From contig JAJNBJ010000002.1 of NCBI GenBank assembly GCA_021155965.1, positions 386,289 through 450,288 on the forward strand: 64,000 nucleotides of DNA, given 5' to 3'. The stretch is from Flavipsychrobacter sp. GTDB taxonomy: Bacteria; Bacteroidota; Bacteroidia; Chitinophagales; Chitinophagaceae. The translations under genes and the position numbers were made by a program. The notes under the pieces are model-generated. The model was not told the DNA's origin. It did not search any database and saw only the letters and a program-made list of their open reading frames with translations. Below are positions 13,091-64,000 of this stretch, one piece after another (positions within the stretch are counted from its first letter, which is position 1; each line of letters opens with the position of its first letter).

Positions 13091-15358
13091 TCACTGTACT
13101 ACAAATTTCAGTATGGTCTTACGGTTTTGGGTATCGAACAGCCTGATTATGTACATACCTCTTGGCCATTCATAAACAGGAATGTCGAGCAGGCCGTTCA
13201 CTCTGCCTGTATACACCTCCCTGCCGGCCATATCAAAAATCGCGAACCGTTGCTCCCCCTTATTTCCCGATGCAACGCGCAGGTTGGTATGGGTAGGCAC
13301 CGGAGAAACCGAAATAGCAGTATCTGTACCATCGCTATGGGTAACTGAGAAATTATATTTATTCACGTTAAAGAATACATTGCCTGCACCCTTCACTTTT
13401 ATCCTCGCAAGTTTAGTTGCAGAATCCGGGTTTGCCAGGGGTATCAGCGCACTGCCGGTATTCGGGAAATTACCAATGTAATACGGCCACGTATATCCAC
13501 CATCTTTCGACATATAAATATCTACGCTTGTGGCACTTATCGGGGAAATATCCGTACCGGCAACATCCCATTTCACTTCCTGTGTACTGCCGCCATAATA
13601 TACGGCAGTTGAGTCATCCTGGCTGGTAACTTTGAACCCCTTACCTGTATTGACCACGTTCAGGTGTATGGTATCATCTGGTATCAATACACAGCCATTG
13701 CCGTTCAATATATTGCGCATGGTGAGTTTGAATGTCAGGTACCTGTCGGTATCCGGCACTTTTTCCCCCTGTGCATTTTCCTTACCCGCATTGCTCAATT
13801 TTCCCGCAAGCACCATAGTGTCTTCAGGAAAAACTCTCACGTTTGATTTCGTTGGCCTGTACGATCGGAAAATAGGGCCTGTTTCACGTATATCCACAAA
13901 CCGCTTACCTTTATCAGCACCTTCAGCAAGGTTCCATTGCTCCCAGCAATAAGTTACCGATGCACTGGCAACAGAATCCGTTGCAGCCGGGGCCGTCAGT
14001 TCAAAAGGTGTATGTGCAGGTATGCTGTAGGAATGGGTGAAGGAAGGCAGGTAAACAGTTTTATTACCGGTCGCCGTTTTTGTTGCACAACCATCTGCCC
14101 AGTTTGTGATATAGCTGTGCATGTCCTGCAGGCTCACTGCATGAAAGTAGTCATCGCTGTATGGTTGAATATCATCCGGGCTGCAAAGTCCTGCATATGC
14201 CATAATGGTAGACCCGCTACCCGGCTCATAGGCTGATTCGTGCCAGTTGCCCAAACAAAAATTATCAGAACCATTAAAGGTATGGCTGCCCCCGAATTGG
14301 TGCCCGATCTCATGTGCCACATAATCTATGTCAAAGCCATCGCCGAATGGGTTTACCCTGCCTGTCACACTACGCGCTTTTGACATAGCCCTGCATACAT
14401 TACCAATATCGGAAAGGCCTCCCGCACCTGTGGTAAATACATGGCCAAGGTCATAATTAGCGCTCCCTATACGGTTGTCGCAAACTGTCTGGTTCATAAT
14501 AACGCACGAGGGTGCATTACTATTGATCGCACCAAATGGGTCCGGGCCATTCACTGAACTGATCTCCGAATTCCAGATCAATGTATCTTGTCTGGCAACA
14601 AAAACCATTGTTACGGAAAGTTCACGCTCATACACGCCATTCACACGGTTCATTGTGGTCACCATCTTGCTGAATACCTGTGCTATTGTTGGCGCAGAAA
14701 GGCTTGTGGCTGCGGCTGCATACTGGTGTGAACAGGAAAGCGCCAGGCTGTAAGTGCGTTTTTGGTTGCCATTACTTACCCTGTAAGCACTCGTGCTCAA
14801 ATCAACAGGCTTGTCTTTTGTCGCTGGTTCGGTTTGTATAACTGCGCACTTGCTTTCTGCTGTTAACACAGCAACCTCATCTCTTTTATAATGTGCTGCA
14901 TAGTACCCGTTTTGCCCGTCACCTGCAGGATCTACAAATGAAATTTCACGCTCACCAAATACCATTGCATGGAAACCATACACCGTATGATCAAGTTTAA
15001 TAGTAACCACAGGATCATCAACAGCAACACCTGTAAATGTTCTTAGTTCAGGGTATCGTGCAGCCAGCTCAGCGGGCATCATTGGGGTATACCAAACTTT
15101 AAATTCACGCATAGTACCGTCCGGCATAGGAACTGAAATTATTTGTGCGGCATGCTCATTTGCGGGCAGCGAAAAGAGAAAGGCTTTTAAGCCCAACTCA
15201 TCAGTATGATATATCTCGTACCGGGAGGCATTTATTTTTTGCGAAGAAGCAGGCAAGGTCTCACGGGCAACATGCTTCCAGACAACAGAAGCAAAAACAC
15301 TATGGGTATAAAAAAAGCCGGCTACAAAAAACGCTAAGGCAATATGTCTTCTCATCAC
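13091..15358 (-). CDS. Secreted reprolysin-like (M12B-type) metalloprotease, T9SS cargo
   Basis: A 755-residue protein with an N-terminal signal peptide (FFVAGFFYTHSVFA), a long propeptide-like region, and a metzincin zinc site HEIGHQFGGSH around residue 349, where three His bind zinc and Glu is the general base. After the catalytic domain come Ig/fibronectin-like beta domains and a C-terminal T9SS sorting domain (VSPVPTHTNLRV, then ending KFVVQ). Start could be ATG at 15358 or the next codon. It would be secreted to the surface and cut extracellular proteins; substrate unknown. On the minus strand it lies upstream of miaE by 11 bp. Confidence 0.92.
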   Translation of the reverse strand: MMRRHIALAFFVAGFFYTHSVFASVVWKHVARETLPASSQKINASRYEIYHTDELGLKAFLFSLPANEHAAQIISVPMPDGTMREFKVWYTPMMPAELAARYPELRTFTGVAVDDPVVTIKLDHTVYGFHAMVFGEREISFVDPAGDGQNGYYAAHYKRDEVAVLTAESKCAVIQTEPATKDKPVDLSTSAYRVSNGNQKRTYSLALSCSHQYAAAATSLSAPTIAQVFSKMVTTMNRVNGVYERELSVTMVFVARQDTLIWNSEISSVNGPDPFGAINSNAPSCVIMNQTVCDNRIGSANYDLGHVFTTGAGGLSDIGNVCRAMSKARSVTGRVNPFGDGFDIDYVAHEIGHQFGGSHTFNGSDNFCLGNWHESAYEPGSGSTIMAYAGLCSPDDIQPYSDDYFHAVSLQDMHSYITNWADGCATKTATGNKTVYLPSFTHSYSIPAHTPFELTAPAATDSVASASVTYCWEQWNLAEGADKGKRFVDIRETGPIFRSYRPTKSNVRVFPEDTMVLAGKLSNAGKENAQGEKVPDTDRYLTFKLTMRNILNGNGCVLIPDDTIHLNVVNTGKGFKVTSQDDSTAVYYGGSTQEVKWDVAGTDISPISATSVDIYMSKDGGYTWPYYIGNFPNTGSALIPLANPDSATKLARIKVKGAGNVFFNVNKYNFSVTHSDGTDTAISVSPVPTHTNLRVASGNKGEQRFAIFDMAGREVYTGRVNGLLDIPVYEWPRGMYIIRLFDTQNRKTILKFVVQ

Positions 15359-56943: not shown

Positions 56944-57016
56944 GGTGCGGTAGCTCAGTCGGTAGAGCAAAGGACTGAAAATCCTTGTGTCGCCGGTTCG
57001 ATCCCGGCCCACACCA
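56944..57016 (+). tRNA. tRNA-Phe (anticodon GAA)
   Basis: A 73-nt cloverleaf: acceptor GGTGCGG, D arm GCTC/GAGC, anticodon arm AAGGA CTGAAAA TCCTT with GAA anticodon, variable GTGTC, T arm GCCGG TTCGATC CCGGC, acceptor CCACACC, discriminator A. CCA is not encoded. Pair 5:68 is C with A, a mismatch in an otherwise intact acceptor stem. Directly downstream of it sits a tyrosine recombinase gene, so the 3' part of this tRNA is the likely attachment site. Confidence 0.96.
56990..57016 (+). other. Candidate attachment site in tRNA-Phe 3' end
   Basis: Inferred from context: the integrase gene starts 226 bp after the tRNA end, and islands of this type usually recombine in the 3' half of a tRNA gene. 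The right-hand copy is not in the window, so the extent and identity of the core are unproved. Confidence 0.4.
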
Positions 57017-57023
57017 CTTGATG

Positions 57024-57065
57024 AAACCTTGAAATAAGCTGATAGCTGATTTTCAAGGTTTTTTA
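57024..57065 (+). terminator. Terminator after tRNA-Phe
   Basis: AAACCTTGAAA (57024-57034) pairs with TTTCAAGGTTT (57051-57061), with AGCT/AGCT in the loop, then a T-run to 57065. Confidence 0.82.
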
Positions 57066-57241
57066 TTTGCAGAATAATGCAAATAAGTGCAGCCAAATGC
57101 GGGAATTTGGTGTAATTTCGGAGACATGGAAAACCGTTAAAAACCTCTTTTCTTCTTCTTGCTTTCTTTAGCATCCAGATGCACTATTTAGCATCTTCTG
57201 TTTTGCACCGGGTTACGGAATTTTACTCCACAACGTAAGCT

Positions 57242-58462
57242 ATGCAAGCATTTGAGCAATTTACCGACATCCACATTTCGTTTTTTTGCAGGACAACTTA
57301 TGAGAACGAAAAGTGCCAAAATCCCATAGTTCTGAGGGTCAGCTACCGGGGAGAGCGCAGAGACATTTTCACCGGCCTATACTGCTACAAATCAGACTGG
57401 GCGCCAAAAATGGGTAAGGTCAGCAGAACTGAACCCCTGGCAGTAGCAATTAACCGCAATTTGGATGCAATCCACCACAAGGCAAAACAGCGGTTTGACG
57501 AGCTGCGATTTTCGGGGGATGAGTTCACCATTGATGATTTGATGGACCGAATAAAAGGTAAGGAACCACCCCCGCAAACACTCGCGGAATATATGGATCT
57601 GAAATTAAAAGAATTGAATGACCGGGTAGATATTGACCTATCAAAACCTACGTTTTACAAATACAACCGTACGAAGAACTATATGGAAGAGTTTCTGTTG
57701 TCCAAAAAAAGAATCCGGAATATTCCGGTATCGAGGGTCAATGCCGATTTCCTCACCCAATTCTTCCATTTTCTGAGAAAAGAAAAGAACAATAGTCATA
57801 ATTCGGCCCTTGCATTGCTTTTCTGCCTGAAAACAATCCTCCAGATGCCTTTAAGAAATGGGGTACTCAAAACAAATCCATTCCTTGAACTGAAAATCTC
57901 AGCTAAAACAGTTTACCGGGATTTTCTGACAATTGAAGAGATAGAAACCTTGGAAAAGTTGAATTTAGATAGTGAATTCATGGAAAGAACCAGGGATATT
58001 TTCCTTTTTGCATGTTATACCGGCCTCTCTTATTCAGATATCTATCAGTTAAAAAAGGAGAATCTTATTCCGGAAAATGACGGAACATTCCACATCCATA
58101 AGCCAAGACAAAAAACCGGGATAATCAGTATTATTCCCTTGTTGCCTCCTGCTCAGCGGATTCTGAAAAAATACTCGCCGAGTGATGATATCAGGGAATT
58201 TTCCTGGTATGTCCCGACAAATCAAAAACTCAATAAAAACCTGAAAACTATTGGGGAAACCGCAGGATTCGATAAGAAACTATTTATGCACCTCGCGCGG
58301 CATACGTTTGCGACAACGGTAACACTGTCGAACGGCGTTCCATTGGAAACAGTAAGCAAAATGTTGGGACATAGTGAGACAAAGACCACTCAGATATATG
58401 CCAAAGTAGTTGCAAGCAAAATAAAGATGGACATGGAACGGGTAAGATCAATTTTTAAGTAG
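57242..58462 (+). CDS. Tyrosine recombinase (integrase), Bacteroidota IntDOT-like
   Basis: A 406-residue site-specific recombinase. An arm-binding N-terminus (~1-100), a SAM-like core-binding domain (~110-215) and a catalytic domain (~225-406). Catalytic residues seen: Lys in RQKTG (about 291), His350 and Arg353 in HLARH, His377 in LGHSETK, and Tyr386 in QIYAKV. The first catalytic Arg is Ser263 (CYTGLSYSD), as in the IntDOT group of Bacteroides conjugative elements. It would catalyse insertion and excision at the adjacent tRNA-Phe. No excisionase is recognised. Confidence 0.93.
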   Translation: MQAFEQFTDIHISFFCRTTYENEKCQNPIVLRVSYRGERRDIFTGLYCYKSDWAPKMGKVSRTEPLAVAINRNLDAIHHKAKQRFDELRFSGDEFTIDDLMDRIKGKEPPPQTLAEYMDLKLKELNDRVDIDLSKPTFYKYNRTKNYMEEFLLSKKRIRNIPVSRVNADFLTQFFHFLRKEKNNSHNSALALLFCLKTILQMPLRNGVLKTNPFLELKISAKTVYRDFLTIEEIETLEKLNLDSEFMERTRDIFLFACYTGLSYSDIYQLKKENLIPENDGTFHIHKPRQKTGIISIIPLLPPAQRILKKYSPSDDIREFSWYVPTNQKLNKNLKTIGETAGFDKKLFMHLARHTFATTVTLSNGVPLETVSKMLGHSETKTTQIYAKVVASKIKMDMERVRSIFK

Positions 58463-58518
58463 CAGTTATTCTGTAAAGTGAGTTTATGAGGGTTTATGAT
58501 AATTCCTGTGCTATTGCT

Positions 58519-58541
58519 GGAATTTTCCGGAAAATTCCGGA
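58519..58541. repeat. Palindromic element, copy 1 (perfect 20-bp palindrome)
   Basis: GGAATTTTCC followed by GGAAAATTCC is a perfect palindrome at 58519-58538, continuing GGA. It ends 6 bp before the ATG of the small ORF at 58548. Copy 2 at 58789-58812 differs by one inserted A and one substitution. A repressor operator or recombinase accessory site is the natural guess, not shown. Confidence 0.7.
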
Positions 58542-58547
58542 ACAAAT

Positions 58548-58715
58548 ATGATAGAACTGAAGGACTTCCAATGCAAGCCTCTATATACTGCGCGTTGCAT
58601 ACATGTGCGACCGAGGCAACCGTATCCATTGGAGTTCCTTGGAAACCACGTAAACGCTTCATATAGTGAGACAACACCTCCAGAAAAAATATGCCGTAGT
58701 GATGGCAGAGTATAA
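58548..58715 (+). CDS. 55-residue hypothetical protein behind a palindrome
   Basis: ATG at 58548, TAA at 58713-58715. The product (MIELKDFQCK...PLEFLGNH...GRV) is basic, with four Pro-rich or Arg-rich stretches and three Cys, and has no signal or membrane segment. Its coding bias is not obviously wrong, but the frame is short and no family is recognised, so it is a candidate only. The palindrome at 58519 sits where an operator would sit. Confidence 0.4.
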   Translation: MIELKDFQCKPLYTARCIHVRPRQPYPLEFLGNHVNASYSETTPPEKICRSDGRV

Positions 58716-58788
58716 AAAGTCATTGTTCACTCAGTAGTTAATCTCAATGAAAATTGCACGACATATTATATTTGCGTAGATAAATATG

Positions 58789-58812
58789 GGAAATTTTCCG
58801 AAAAATTCCGGA
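58789..58812. repeat. Palindromic element, copy 2 (imperfect)
   Basis: GGAAATTTTCCG followed by AAAAATTCCGGA: the same element as copy 1, 270 bp downstream, with one extra A and one G-to-A change in the centre. It lies 32 bp before the ATG of the interrupted ORF at 58844. Having the element ahead of two consecutive small frames is what makes it stand out. Confidence 0.7.
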
Positions 58813-58843
58813 TTATACTCCAATTTCGATGCATTCGTATTTT

Positions 58844-59227
58844 ATGACGATTCACCAATTTTGTCCAAAATTCGGGATTAGTATTCAAGACATAAAGTCG
58901 GCATTGAGTAGGCCAGACCTCGGGCTGTTCTATGTTCTAACGGATACTGAAATAGCTTGTGTACGGGAATACGACTTCTAAAAAGCCAAATTAAAAAAGG
59001 AGCTCATTCTAGGTATTAAACAAGCGAATAAGGAACTGTCAATAATAAAAACCAAGGCCGAAAAAAAGGTGGTCAAAAAGAAGATTGAAAAGCTCGAAAT
59101 GCAGTTGAATAAGTTAGCGCCACCTAAAAAGATCCGCACCAAATCATCTCAACAAAACCCATTTAATCCGAAAGGGCATAAGCCTGCGTATGTGCGAATT
59201 ATTACAACGCCAATGGGGCATAAGTGA
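58844..59227 (+). pseudogene. 127-codon gene interrupted by an in-frame TAA
   Basis: From ATG at 58844 the frame runs 45 codons (MTIHQFCPKFGI...REYDF), hits TAA at 58979-58981, and continues in the SAME frame for 81 more codons to TGA at 59225-59227. The second part (KAKLKKELILG, then a Lys/Glu-rich helix, then NPFNPKGHKPAYVRI) looks coding. A nonsense mutation is the simplest cause; a frameshift would not leave both halves in one frame. No family recognised. Confidence 0.7.
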
Positions 59228-59381
59228 TAAAGAGTAGACTTCCGTATTTACTATTTTGCAACCCTTTTTACTGACAATACACAAAATGAATATATTTTAA
59301 TGTCATTCGTCTAGCAAACCTCTGAATTCCATTAGATAAAAGCTACTTTTGAGACATTGATAAAGAATGACATAGTAGGCC

Positions 59382-61244
59382 ATGAATCCAACTATTGGAC
59401 AACGAATTTCGACACGAGGAGAGGATTTTATAATAACTAATTCGAATACTAACCATGACGGGTCTTTTTTGATCGAGGCAGAGGGTATTAGCGAGCTGGT
59501 TAAAGGGAAAAGATTTGCATTTGACACAAACTTAGATACAGATATTCGGCAGGTTGATCTCAATCTTACGAAGCTGGTACCTGATACAGACAGCGGATAC
59601 AGAAAGACCAAACTGTTCTTAGAAACCCAAATCAGAAATTCTGCAATATTTTCCGAGAAAATTACAATAGCCAATAAGGCTGCAATTAATGCTGCCGACT
59701 ACCAGCTCACCCCAACTCTTAAAGCCCTGCAGCTACCTCGGCCCCGCTTACTCATAGCAGATGGGGTTGGTCTTGGCAAGACAATCGAGGTGGGAATATT
59801 CCTCACGGAAATGATAAAAAGGGGCAAGGGAAAGCGAATTATGGTACTGGCTCCGAAATCTATCTTGGCACAGTTTCAGCAGGAATTGTGGAACCGCTTT
59901 GCTATTCCATTGGTTCGCCTGGATTCTGAAGGTATTGCGAAGATCAAATCGCAACAGCCAGCCAATAAAAATCCGTTTGAGTTTTATGATAAGATTATCA
60001 TCTCGATTGACACTCTGAAGAACAACTCTAAATTCAGGCACTACCTCGAGAAGTCAAGATGGGATGTTATTGTTATTGATGAGTGTCATACCGTAGCGAA
60101 CGACAAAAGCCAGAAAGGCGACTTGGCGCAGTTTGTTGCCAAGAAATGCGAGTCCTTAATTCTGACATCCGCTACTCCCCATAATGGGCGAAAGGAGAAT
60201 TTCGCCAATCTCATCAACATGATTGAACCAACCGCTATACTTAAAAGCGGTGACTATGATAAAACTCATGTTGAGCCGTATTATGTTCGCAGGTTTAAGA
60301 ATGATATTGCTGATGCTGAGGCAAGAAAGAATTTTTCCGAAAGAGAGGTAATCAGGATTCCTGCTCCATTGAGCGAAGGCGAGATTGATTTTTTGCAATA
60401 CCAGCAGGATTTGAAGTTTAAAGCTATTGATGCCGTTAAGCACGGCAAGCCAAAGGATGATTTTCTTTTTTCGATTGGAATCTTCAAAGCGTTCATGTCA
60501 TCGCCAATTGCCGCTCTTGAAAGTGTGAAGCGGAGAATTGAGAAAGTATCGGCAAAAGTCAAAGAAGGGAATTTCTACGAAGAGAACCTTGAAGTGCTCA
60601 ACACACTGAAATCAAAGCTTGAGCAGATACTCGGTTCAAAATCTGACACTAAGTATACCAAGCTTAAAAAGGCGCTTCTCGACCTGGGATGGTCTGGTAA
60701 GAAGCATGACGATCGGTATGTGATTTTTGCTGAAAGAATCGACACACTGGAATATCTGAAGAAACAACTGACGACTGATTTCAAAATGTCTGAGGATGCT
60801 ATTCAATTCTTCCATGGCGGATTGAACGATACCGATCAACAGAATATAATAGAGGATTTCGGAAAGCAGGATAGTACAGTGAAAATACTGCTCAGTTCCG
60901 ATGCAGGATCTCAAGGAGTGAACCTCCACTACTATTGCCATAGAACGTTTAACTACGACATTCCATGGTCTCTCATAACGCTCGAACAGCGCAATGGCCG
61001 TATTGACAGATATGGTCAGAAGTACACTCCCTATATCTACTACTTAATTGCAGATTCTGATGTGGACGGACTGAAGACCGACTTGCACATCGTAGAGCGA
61101 TTAACTCAAAAGGAAGAAGTAGTCTACCGAATGCTGGGCGATGCGGGGTCGGTGATGAAGCTTTATGATGCTGGTAAGGAGGAAAAGTTGGTGGAGCGAG
61201 CCTTCCTGAAACAAGAACTCAATAGGCTCAATGGAGGGAGTTAA
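59382..61244 (+). CDS. SNF2/DEAD-type helicase, probably C-terminally truncated
   Basis: A 620-residue superfamily-2 helicase/translocase. Motifs: I ADGVGLGKTIE (about 126-136), II VIVIDECHTV, III LTSATPHNG, and in the second core domain SSDAGSQGVNLHYY (motif V) and EQRNGRIDRYGQ (motif VI). It is RapA/DISARM-DrmD-like. Relatives usually run to about 1000 residues, so ~350 C-terminal residues appear lost; the end (FLKQELNRLNGGS) is abrupt, and antisense coding-like sequence begins right at the stop. The N-terminal 80 residues are a beta-rich domain. Role may be defence or repair. Confidence 0.85.
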   Translation: MNPTIGQRISTRGEDFIITNSNTNHDGSFLIEAEGISELVKGKRFAFDTNLDTDIRQVDLNLTKLVPDTDSGYRKTKLFLETQIRNSAIFSEKITIANKAAINAADYQLTPTLKALQLPRPRLLIADGVGLGKTIEVGIFLTEMIKRGKGKRIMVLAPKSILAQFQQELWNRFAIPLVRLDSEGIAKIKSQQPANKNPFEFYDKIIISIDTLKNNSKFRHYLEKSRWDVIVIDECHTVANDKSQKGDLAQFVAKKCESLILTSATPHNGRKENFANLINMIEPTAILKSGDYDKTHVEPYYVRRFKNDIADAEARKNFSEREVIRIPAPLSEGEIDFLQYQQDLKFKAIDAVKHGKPKDDFLFSIGIFKAFMSSPIAALESVKRRIEKVSAKVKEGNFYEENLEVLNTLKSKLEQILGSKSDTKYTKLKKALLDLGWSGKKHDDRYVIFAERIDTLEYLKKQLTTDFKMSEDAIQFFHGGLNDTDQQNIIEDFGKQDSTVKILLSSDAGSQGVNLHYYCHRTFNYDIPWSLITLEQRNGRIDRYGQKYTPYIYYLIADSDVDGLKTDLHIVERLTQKEEVVYRMLGDAGSVMKLYDAGKEEKLVERAFLKQELNRLNGGS

Positions 61245-61365
61245 TCCGTACTCTTTGGCAATTATCCCGTTTATTAATTGCTTGTTGTCGGCTTCGTAGC
61301 TTTTCAGCATAATAAGGTATTTCTGAATAAAGTCCGTACTTTCACACATAAATAATTTGTGAAAT

Positions 61366-63154
61366 ATGGAGATTCTATTGGTAGTTATTTGCATTTTGCT
61401 TGCCGTTGTAATTCTTCTACAATTCCTATTCCGTAGTAAGCCAACGGAAGCAACGGACAATTCTCAAAAAATCGATCAGCTGTCTGCCGCATTGGCACGG
61501 ATGGAAACTGGCATTAAGGATGACTTCCGAACAAACAGGGAAGAGAATGCAACAATTGCCAAGGACAATCGCTTGGAGTTAAACAATACTCTGAAAGACT
61601 TCAAATCAGAATTGTCTCAAACATTGTCTGCAATAACATCTGCGAGTCAAAAAGCACTGGAGGTTATTAACAAAACACTCGATGAGAAGGTAGATGCACT
61701 CACGAAGAAAATTGATGAAAACAATATAGCAAATAGGGAATCACTGGCAACGGGGCTGAAAGACTTTACTCTTGAGCAAAGAACCCGCTTCTCTGAATTG
61801 AAGGAAGAGCAAAAGGAGTTTAAAACAGAATTATCCCAGACACTTACTGCTATTACCACGGCTAATCAAAAGGCTTTGGAACTCATCAACAAAACACTTG
61901 ATGAGAAGACGGAAACTTTGACCAAGAAGATCGATGAAAATAACTTAGCGAATAGAGAGTCCTTAGCAACTGGGCTAAAAGATTTTACTCTTGAGCTGCG
62001 TAATAGATTTACCGATTTAAAAGAGGAACAAAAGGAATTTAAACAAAAGACCATAGAGCAATTAGAGAAGATTTCGGGTAAGGTGGAGGAAAAACTCACC
62101 GCTCTTAACAATCAATCAAAAGAGGATAGTCGCCTTATGCGAGAATCCTTGTCAATTTCATTCAAAGGTTTTGAGGAGACATTTAATAAGAATGTGGAAT
62201 CGTTTAATAACCTTCAAAGAGAGAAATTTGGCCAATTAGAAGAGAAGCAAATGAAGCTGGTTGAAAGCACCGAAAAGAAGTTGGAAGAGATGCGTATTAC
62301 TGTTGATGAGAAGCTTCAAAAAACACTGAATGAACGGTTAGGACAATCCTTCGAGTTAGTGGGTAAGCAGTTGGAAAGCGTTCAAAAGGGCTTGGGTGAA
62401 ATGCAAACGCTCGCTCAGGATGTTGGTGGTCTGAAGCGTGTTTTGAGCAACGTAAAGATGCGTGGTGGTATAGGTGAGGTTCAGTTAGCAATGCTGCTGG
62501 AGCAAGTACTAGCTCCTGAGCAGTACGAAGCGAATGTGAAGACTAAATCTGGTAGCGGAGACCTAGTGGAATTTGCCATAAAGTTGCCAGGCCGTGATGA
62601 TGGCAATTCAGTTGCAGGGCGCATATGAAATCGGGGATGTGGCACAAATTGAAGGCTGCCAGAAAATCCTTGAAGCCACAATAAAGAAGATGGCCAAGGA
62701 TATTGGAGACAAATACATTGATCCCCCGAATACAACCGATTTTGCAATAATGTTCCTGCCATTTGAAGGCATCTATGCGGAAGTCGTGCGTAAAGCTAGT
62801 TTGCTTGACGATTTGCATCGCAATTTCAAAATTGTTGTTACTGGACCTACAACACTCGCTGCAATCTTAAACAGCCTGCAAATGGGCTTTAAGACACTTG
62901 CGATACAAAAGCGCAGCAGTGAGGTTTGGAAGATTCTTGGAGCCGTGAAGCAAGAGTTTGAGACATTTGGAGGATTGCTCGATAAGGCACAAAAAAATAT
63001 TTCTACGGGTTTAAACCAGTTAGATGATGTTATGGGCAAACGTACCAAAGCTATACAGAGAAAGCTACGTGACGTTGAGACAATTGGCGTGGCAGAGGCA
63101 AAGTTATTTTTCCCAGAAAGTGATAACAATACTGGTCCAGAAGACGACAACTAG
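61366..63154 (+). pseudogene. rmuC: rmuC, broken by a deletion-frameshift
   Basis: RmuC is a membrane-anchored coiled-coil protein with a nuclease-like domain that limits inversions at repeats. Frame 1 (61366-62628) has the N-terminal helix (EILLVVICILLAVVILLQF), a long coiled coil (~35-350) and the domain start (MRGGIGEVQLAMLLEQVL, VEFAIKLPGRDD), then goes off-frame and stops at 62628. Frame 2 (to 63154) continues the family from LQGAYEIGD through KYIDPPNTTDFAIMFLPFEG. The conserved YLPIDAKFP core between them is gone, so a deletion of about 60 bp near 62601-62612 both broke the frame and removed the core. Product likely inactive. Confidence 0.85.
61609..62046 (+). repeat. 219-bp tandem duplication inside rmuC coiled coil
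   Basis: 61609-61827 and 61828-62046 encode two 73-residue units, ELSQTLSAITSASQKALEV... and ELSQTLTAITTANQKALEL..., about 80% identical by eye in protein. The copies have diverged in DNA, so the duplication is not recent. Confidence 0.8.
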
Positions 63155-63192
63155 GAAAACTATAATCGACATCAGCACAGCATCAGATTGCG

Positions 63193-64000
63193 TCAGTTTG
63201 CAATTGCCGTTACGCCATCTTCCGTACCTTGTAACACCCACAATTTTGCAGGAATTCCATCGTTTTCTAGTTTACGCATAAAAAATTTTGCCTGAACGGT
63301 ATCGTGAGTAGCCAATAACACCTGAAAGTCGAAAGTTGTTATATAATCACGTAATAAGTCGAAAACTGCCGAGGCGTGAACCAAATCATGGTGTTGTGTT
63401 GGGTCATCTAATAGCAGAGTGCGCCAAGGAGACCACTGGTATTTTTGAGCCATCGCAAGCAAAAATGTAAACTGAAGATCAGTGATTTGAGCTTCACTTG
63501 CGACATGAGCCACGAGTGTATTGTCACCGTGAAGCTTTATATTAACATCTGCGTGCTGCTTTTTATAATGGCTATAACTATTTAGATTGGTATTGGCAAA
63601 TCTTGGATCAACAACGATCCTTTTGAGAAGCTTATTCCATAGTGGGTTAATTGATTGAATACGGTCATTTACTTTCTTTAATTCAGAATCGATGTTTTTC
63701 GCAAAACTGTTTAGAGTTTTGATTTTTAAATTAATTGTCTGAACCGCATTATTGGCTTTGTCAAAATCTTCTTTTATTTTTTTTGCGTATTCTGCTTCTG
63801 TACTCCTCCCTATCACTCTCTTAATGTCACTTTCAATTTTTAAGTACTCTTCAGACTTTCGCCATTTTGTTATTTCAATATTAAGAGAGTCAATTTTTTG
63901 TTTGTCATTTTCCCTATTAGACAATAAGGTGCCATTTTCACCCTTTGCTTTTTCTAACAAATCAATTGAAGGTTCGCCAGTCAATTCTAAGTCTTTCCAT
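63193..64000 (-). CDS. SMC/Rad50-like ATPase, C-terminal part (5' end outside window)
   Basis: The minus-strand frame is open from the window edge and stops at 63193; 268 residues are visible. A coiled coil (about 10-110 of the visible part) leads into an ATP-binding cassette end: a signature-like ASEAQITDLQFTFLLAMA, Walker B with D-loop TLLLDDPTQHHDLVHAS, and H-loop LLATHDTVQ. This is the SMC/RecN/Rad50-type ATPase fold seen in repair and in several phage-defence systems (Lamassu, Wadjet, Septu). Which one cannot be told without the N-terminus. The gene is convergent with rmuC, 39 bp apart. Confidence 0.85.
   Translation of the reverse strand, partial: WKDLELTGEPSIDLLEKAKGENGTLLSNRENDKQKIDSLNIEITKWRKSEEYLKIESDIKRVIGRSTEAEYAKKIKEDFDKANNAVQTINLKIKTLNSFAKNIDSELKKVNDRIQSINPLWNKLLKRIVVDPRFANTNLNSYSHYKKQHADVNIKLHGDNTLVAHVASEAQITDLQFTFLLAMAQKYQWSPWRTLLLDDPTQHHDLVHASAVFDLLRDYITTFDFQVLLATHDTVQAKFFMRKLENDGIPAKLWVLQGTEDGVTAIAN

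Follow-up and report, generated by a model that had tools for sequence, protein, structure and literature searches.

The island and its cargo

The window, by which we mean the whole stretch of 64,000 nucleotides analysed here, ends in an island that opens with an intact tyrosine recombinase gene (int) beside the 3' end of a tRNA-Phe gene (Table 1), as is typical of a tRNA-targeting island. The short palindrome of interest follows this gene and does belong to an integrase island, in line with the initial annotation. All eight closest integrases, that of the window included, are found 220-247 bp after either a tRNA-Phe (n=5) or a tRNA-Ser (n=3), the distance for the seven relatives being measured to the first matched residue. 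A duplicated tRNA end was sought at the eight loci with exact 12-mers: the window island has none before the contig end, and the related genome G053 has a 17-nt repeat at position 13614. In seven genomes of the same genus, the 0.7-1.5 kb read downstream of tRNA-Phe contains no integrase of this group, which makes a recent arrival of the island in the source lineage probable. The plasmid collection gave one weak match, and one search method returned no int relatives from the genome_contigs collection.

Table 1. Features of the island within the window (positions refer to the window; a dot marks features given no strand)
Feature	Position	Strand	Remarks
tRNA-Phe(GAA)	56944..57017	+	Presumed integration target of the island; ARAGORN
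Intact tyrosine recombinase (int), 406 aa	57242..58462	+	225 bp downstream of the tRNA; Pfam PF00589 (6.1e-17), PF17293, PF13102
GGAATATTCC decamer within int	57717..57726	.	
GGAATTTTCC decamer within int	58195..58204	.	
Palindrome copy 1, intact	58519..58538	.	56 bp past the int stop codon
Eroded 3' part of a second integrase gene, carrying a 55-codon frame	58555..58720	+	DNA alignment
Palindrome copy 2, decayed, 8/10 pairs	58790..58809	.	52 bp past the aligned end of the integrase remnant
Interrupted frame, probably debris	58829..59227	+	In-frame TAA at 58979; no homologue found
SNF2 helicase, DrmD-like, cargo	59382..61244	+	PADLOC DrmD 8.1e-98
RmuC-like protein, split, cargo	61366..63154	+	Two overlapping frames, 61366-62628 and 62594-63154
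SMC/LmuB-like protein, C-terminal part, cargo	63193..63984	-	Runs beyond the window; full 1000-aa protein matches LmuB at 1.7e-80

Judged from its genes, the cargo looks like anti-phage defence, comprising a DrmD-like SNF2 helicase, an RmuC-like protein and Lamassu-like genes. The DrmD-like protein scores 351.5 bits against the NCBIfam model DISARM_DrmD, under the cut-off of 610. The two RmuC-like frames match positions 1-113 and 137-290 of the 291 in the PF02646 profile; the split reflects a frameshift or a sequencing error, and the first frame contains a 219-bp tandem repeat (71%). The cargo spans 59382-63984 and runs on to the end of contig C16 (locus L060); its minus-strand genes, with an LmuB-like match at 1.7e-80 and a weak LmuA-like match at 1.4e-6, look Lamassu-like. 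The end of C16, which lies inside the island (L060:14107-14202), and the start of contig C2 (L127:4-99) share 96 identical bp in inverted orientation. Synteny was used to ask whether C2 joins C16: for the RND gene on C2, no tRNA was found within 1.5 kb upstream at the loci of 15 relatives, nor within 13-17 kb in the four relatives that were read further.

The palindrome behind integrase ends

Copy 1 of the palindrome (GGAATTTTCC/GGAAAATTCC) is built of two tandem decamers of the form GGAWWWWTCC and, as reported initially, is an exact 20-bp palindrome. Copy 2 (GAAATTTTCCGAAAAATTCC) had been placed at 58789-58812 and described as carrying one indel and one substitution; the copy is real, but two substitutions suffice to derive it from copy 1, no indel is needed, and it keeps 8 of the 10 base pairs. 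The spacings of 6 and 32 bp given earlier between the two copies and the frames that follow them hold with a 23-bp form of the element (to 58541) and the ATG at 58844. When up to 3 mismatches are allowed, the window yields these two copies and no others, and 100 shuffles yield not a single match; the palindrome of this integrase island is not a product of chance. The earlier remark that no such element was noticed elsewhere in the window stands at this threshold, though an exact third copy exists outside it. The window holds six GGAWWWWTCC decamers, four of which start between 57717 and 58529.

The segment 58555-58720 aligns to integrase DNA at 58258-58427 with a score of 82, whereas 300 shuffles reach at most 47; by this alignment the 55-codon frame at 58548-58715 is the worn end of a second integrase and not an independent gene. 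The frame that follows copy 2 has no match in Pfam, PHROGs or the plasmid collection and is probably debris as well. The initial annotation had taken the two frames for consecutive small genes and offered a shared operator as one role for the repeated element. Neither idea is supported: one frame is integrase debris, the other is interrupted and has no match in those three collections, and in the absence of two intact, conserved downstream genes we rejected two small genes under one operator. That annotation had itself named a genome-wide scatter of the element, or a lack of conservation of the frames, as evidence to the contrary; the element is not scattered in the genome, and the frames show no conservation in the collections searched. 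Its further suggestion of arm-type sites for the integrase is unlikely for the intact copy, which the entire int gene separates from the tRNA end, 1.5 kb away. The island instead carries two integrase ends in tandem: the intact int comes first with its palindrome, and the worn tail of an older, related integrase follows with a decayed one. Given this tandem arrangement, copy 2 would have come from repeated integration at this one tRNA and subsequent decay, and not as a repeated operator. An easy error is thereby corrected, that of reading integrase debris between repeats as operator-controlled small genes.

In the source genome as a whole the palindrome is scarce: three sites are found when up to 3 mismatches are allowed, and the looser pattern GGAWWWWTCCGGAWWWWTCC also gives three, two of them common to both searches. 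A genome-wide repeat family was rejected on these counts. The exact third copy (G000:C36:1900-1919) lies 66 bp past the point where an aligned integrase tail of some 20 codons ends; this tail lacks one base at its stop. When C36 is compared with the window, gap columns counted, the UTR beside the palindrome agrees in 9 of 22 columns and the palindrome in 20 of 20; the integrase tail agrees in 52 of 64 columns and the first part of the UTR in 41 of 44. We rejected reading the sequence that follows the C36 copy as a pseudo-tRNA, since it has no second copy in the genome and its locus (L004) gives no tRNA or Rfam match. The looser pattern also uncovered a perfect palindrome of the same type at G000:C2:269-288, beside an imperfect one at C2:182-221 (18/20 pairs); neither tblastn nor a profile detected an integrase tail near them.

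The related island of G053 has an integrase 46% identical to that of the window, 228 bp from a tRNA-Ser. Two palindromes lie 3' of this intact gene, and again behind a 17-codon integrase remnant 8.3 kb further on. Last integrase codons, UTR and both palindromes together form a direct repeat of 295 columns with 89% identity, within which the palindromes (58/62) are not clearly better kept than the remainder (206/236). Six cargo genes between the repeats could be classified: two CotH, VTC, DUF4956, DUF2490 and a methyltransferase. The 17-nt copy of the tRNA-Ser end lies beyond the second repeat.

Distribution among integrases and genomes

We surveyed genomes, some of them drafts, with degenerate patterns that were themselves derived from the palindrome sites. 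The pattern GGAWTWTTCCGGAAWAWTCC is matched in 2 of 396 genomes of the order, with six sites that all lie behind integrase ends. The looser GGAWWWWTCCGGAWWWWTCC is matched at 13 sites in 5 of 394 family genomes: six sites are behind integrase ends, one is inside the G053 integrase, one is on C2, and for the remaining five no integrase of this group was present in the DNA fetched. The exact window palindrome, with up to 2 mismatches, is matched in 11 of 294 family genomes; at 11 loci checked outside the source genome and G053, neither tblastn nor a profile detected an integrase, and in seven of them the site is inside an ORF. In genome G072 such a site lies in a coding frame, 7.2 kb past a close relative of the window integrase. 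Another family genome, G233, carries nine palindromes within 2 mismatches, distributed across contigs; no integrase was found in its checked loci (L046, L050, L051), and the L050 palindrome sits in the middle of a much longer inverted repeat close to a contig end, which may be an assembly fold-back.

Among integrases the palindrome is just as uncommon. It lies behind two of the eight closest and is missing from the other six, one of which (G281) is followed by imperfect palindromes of other sequence. It accompanies one of 29 family integrases, that of G053; three others (L012, L027, L031) have unrelated imperfect palindromes behind int. The viral contigs supplied 80 more distant integrases, 9 of which were excluded for short flanks, and none of the 71 usable ones has the palindrome, one having an unrelated palindrome. 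A general integrase feature was rejected on the counts in family genomes and viral contigs; with six of the eight closest and all 71 distant integrases lacking it, the integrase does not generally need the palindrome. The viral contigs hold no exact copy of it; the degenerate pattern occurs in five, in one of which (L116) a weak integrase match (E 7e-4) lies about 8 kb from the palindrome.

The genome_contigs collection, described as covering 84,980 species, contains 41 stretches that match the degenerate pattern, two of which are G053; in the remaining 39 the palindrome is inside an ORF of at least 100 aa in 24 cases and not in 15. A 39-member profile, run because tblastn missed the L077 integrase and found that of L081 only, detected integrases in just L077 and L081. 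On both of these Bacteroidia contigs the palindrome is intergenic and another integrase lies 1.6-2.3 kb away. They also share, about 0.2 kb from the palindrome, an ORF of 131-136 aa (L077:4506-4901 and L081:1200-1610; 63% identical) with a CNRCKKPL motif; neither copy has a Pfam match, and the L077 copy has no NCBIfam match. As far as the literature reached by our search goes, it contains no report of this palindrome.

Possible roles and known counterparts

What we observe directly is a palindrome that is symmetric, rare and placed behind integrase ends; the best reading of the sequences is that it marks the ends of integrase genes, rather than switching two small genes. Ten intergenic sites were compared: three from the window and C36, four from G053, and one each from C2, L077 and L081. 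The four A/T (W) positions pair in all ten, with four different A/T strings, the sites of L077 and L081 having been retrieved by a pattern that already fixes two of the four A/T pairs. Overall, 10 of 10 pairs are kept in nine sites and 8 of 10 in the decayed copy of the window. The outer arms add nothing to the pairing in four sites (both window copies, G053 4673 and L081) and extend it by 1, 2, 2, 4, 9 and 10 bp in the other six. Of the five sites without integrase, one pairs fully. RNA folding gave z-scores of -3.51 for copy 1 of the window (61-nt) and 0.12 for copy 2 (no stable fold), -2.46 for C36, -6.07 and -5.45 for G053, -4.40 for C2, -4.98 for L077 and -2.38 for L081. For C36, L077 and the second G053 copy the top prediction is the expected hairpin, and L081 comes close to it; for the first G053 copy and C2, the neighbouring palindromes are predicted to pair with each other. 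Pairing and predicted folds together favour structure, though not one fixed hairpin. The hairpin role mentioned in the initial annotation thus keeps its basis in that the palindrome could form a hairpin, but in the window the best fold is shifted to 58525-58542 and is not that of the 20-mer. A canonical intrinsic terminator was rejected: neither copy has a G+C-rich stem followed by a T run, no U-tract follows the palindrome stem, and the two terminator-like sites in 57000-59500 (2.1 expected by chance) are at neither 58519 nor 58790, none of them standing behind int.

Our leading explanation, to which we give a little less than an even chance, is that the palindrome would be a cis-acting 3' element of one tRNA-associated tyrosine-integrase lineage. 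It would most likely form a hairpin where the message ends, and its duplication would be due to tandem integration and decay. Standing at the end of the int message, this putative hairpin would act either as a 3' barrier or in a negative control like that of lambda sib. We prefer the hairpin because complementarity is kept between the two halves, and at several sites between the outer arms, even though their sequence differs. Against it speaks that the palindrome is intact beside the truncated integrase tails of C36 and G053, where a role in the int message should be lost. The conserved GGA/TCC letters and the extra decamers inside int suggest instead a double-stranded DNA site whose two 10-bp-phased decamers would be bound by a dimeric protein (a repressor, a silencer or a recombination accessory factor) in control of int or excision; this we consider possible, though on the unlikely side. 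The window, C36, C2 and G053 all share the decamer letters. The window int has two GGAWWWWTCC where codon shuffles average 0.19 (13 of 5000 reach 2), and the G053 int has two, as a tandem pair, where they average 0.25 (68 of 5000); such over-representation inside both palindrome-bearing genes would fit a DNA-binding protein. Likewise GGAANNTTCC is found six times in the window, five of them starting between 57717 and 58529, and the departure of the best fold of copy 1 from the 20-mer hairpin counts in the same direction. A protein would, however, have no need of complementary outer arms of unrelated sequence, which add 4, 9 and 10 pairs at three sites; the palindrome lies behind int and not at its promoter; and the tandem pair inside the G053 int is asymmetric (7/10 pairs). 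As only two of the sampled integrases carry the palindrome, any claim of constraint draws on few independent cases.

That same limitation to two integrases, together with the decay of the older window copy to 8 of 10 pairs, would suit a neutral passenger, i.e. a fold-back scar that landed behind an integrase by chance and was copied along. We find this quite improbable, since the same 20-mer design, with symmetric changes, stands behind integrases only 46% identical, and recurs between genes on two further Bacteroidia contigs with an integrase gene and a common ORF about 0.2 kb off. A different proposal makes the 3' end of int plus the palindrome a second recombination site that exchanges island cargo and whose copies flank it. 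The direct repeats of G053 (integrase tail, UTR and palindromes) do enclose some 8 kb of cargo with no recombinase among its six classified genes, the short remnants start alike (about 64 nt before the integrase end in C36 and about 55 nt in G053), and the similarity between window and C36 ends right after the palindrome. In G053, however, similarity continues for about 110 bp beyond the palindromes and integration is already explained by the direct repeat of the tRNA end; the window remnant begins much further upstream, and six of the eight closest integrases have no palindrome, so that we hold cargo exchange to be very unlikely. Least credible to us is a fuller version in which the palindrome and the last int codons would form a portable second recombination or retention module at both cargo ends, with which defence genes and other cargo would be swapped and the integrase on the tRNA side left in place.

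If the hairpin reading is right, some island integrases of this group would carry a built-in 3' control element that outlives the gene, and the palindrome would serve as a sequence tag by which to locate integrase tails and old borders of islands that escape gene finders.

Several known systems invite comparison. REP and BIME elements are intergenic palindromes present in many copies scattered over the genome; the sites described here are likewise short palindromes behind genes, sometimes paired (G053, C2), but with the looser pattern they number three in the source genome and five in G053, mostly at integrase ends, and so are neither many nor scattered. The attC sites of integrons are folded inverted repeats used by a tyrosine recombinase, and in this our sites may resemble them; unlike them, our sites form no visible cassette array and lie behind int in a tRNA-associated island. 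A defining feature of lambda sib is that it is severed from int upon integration at attP; another trait of sib is RNase III cleavage with loss of the int message. Like sib, the palindrome is an inverted repeat that follows a tyrosine integrase gene and could fold in the message, but in the integrated island it remains 56 bp behind int, and without that separation we do not file it as a sib. Sib is described as a downstream element that controls int (PMC5300877). Accretion of elements at one attachment site is likewise known for other elements (PMC5704250). The tandem integrase remnants of our island agree with such successive integration at one site, and differ in that a palindromic tail is repeated with each integrase end.
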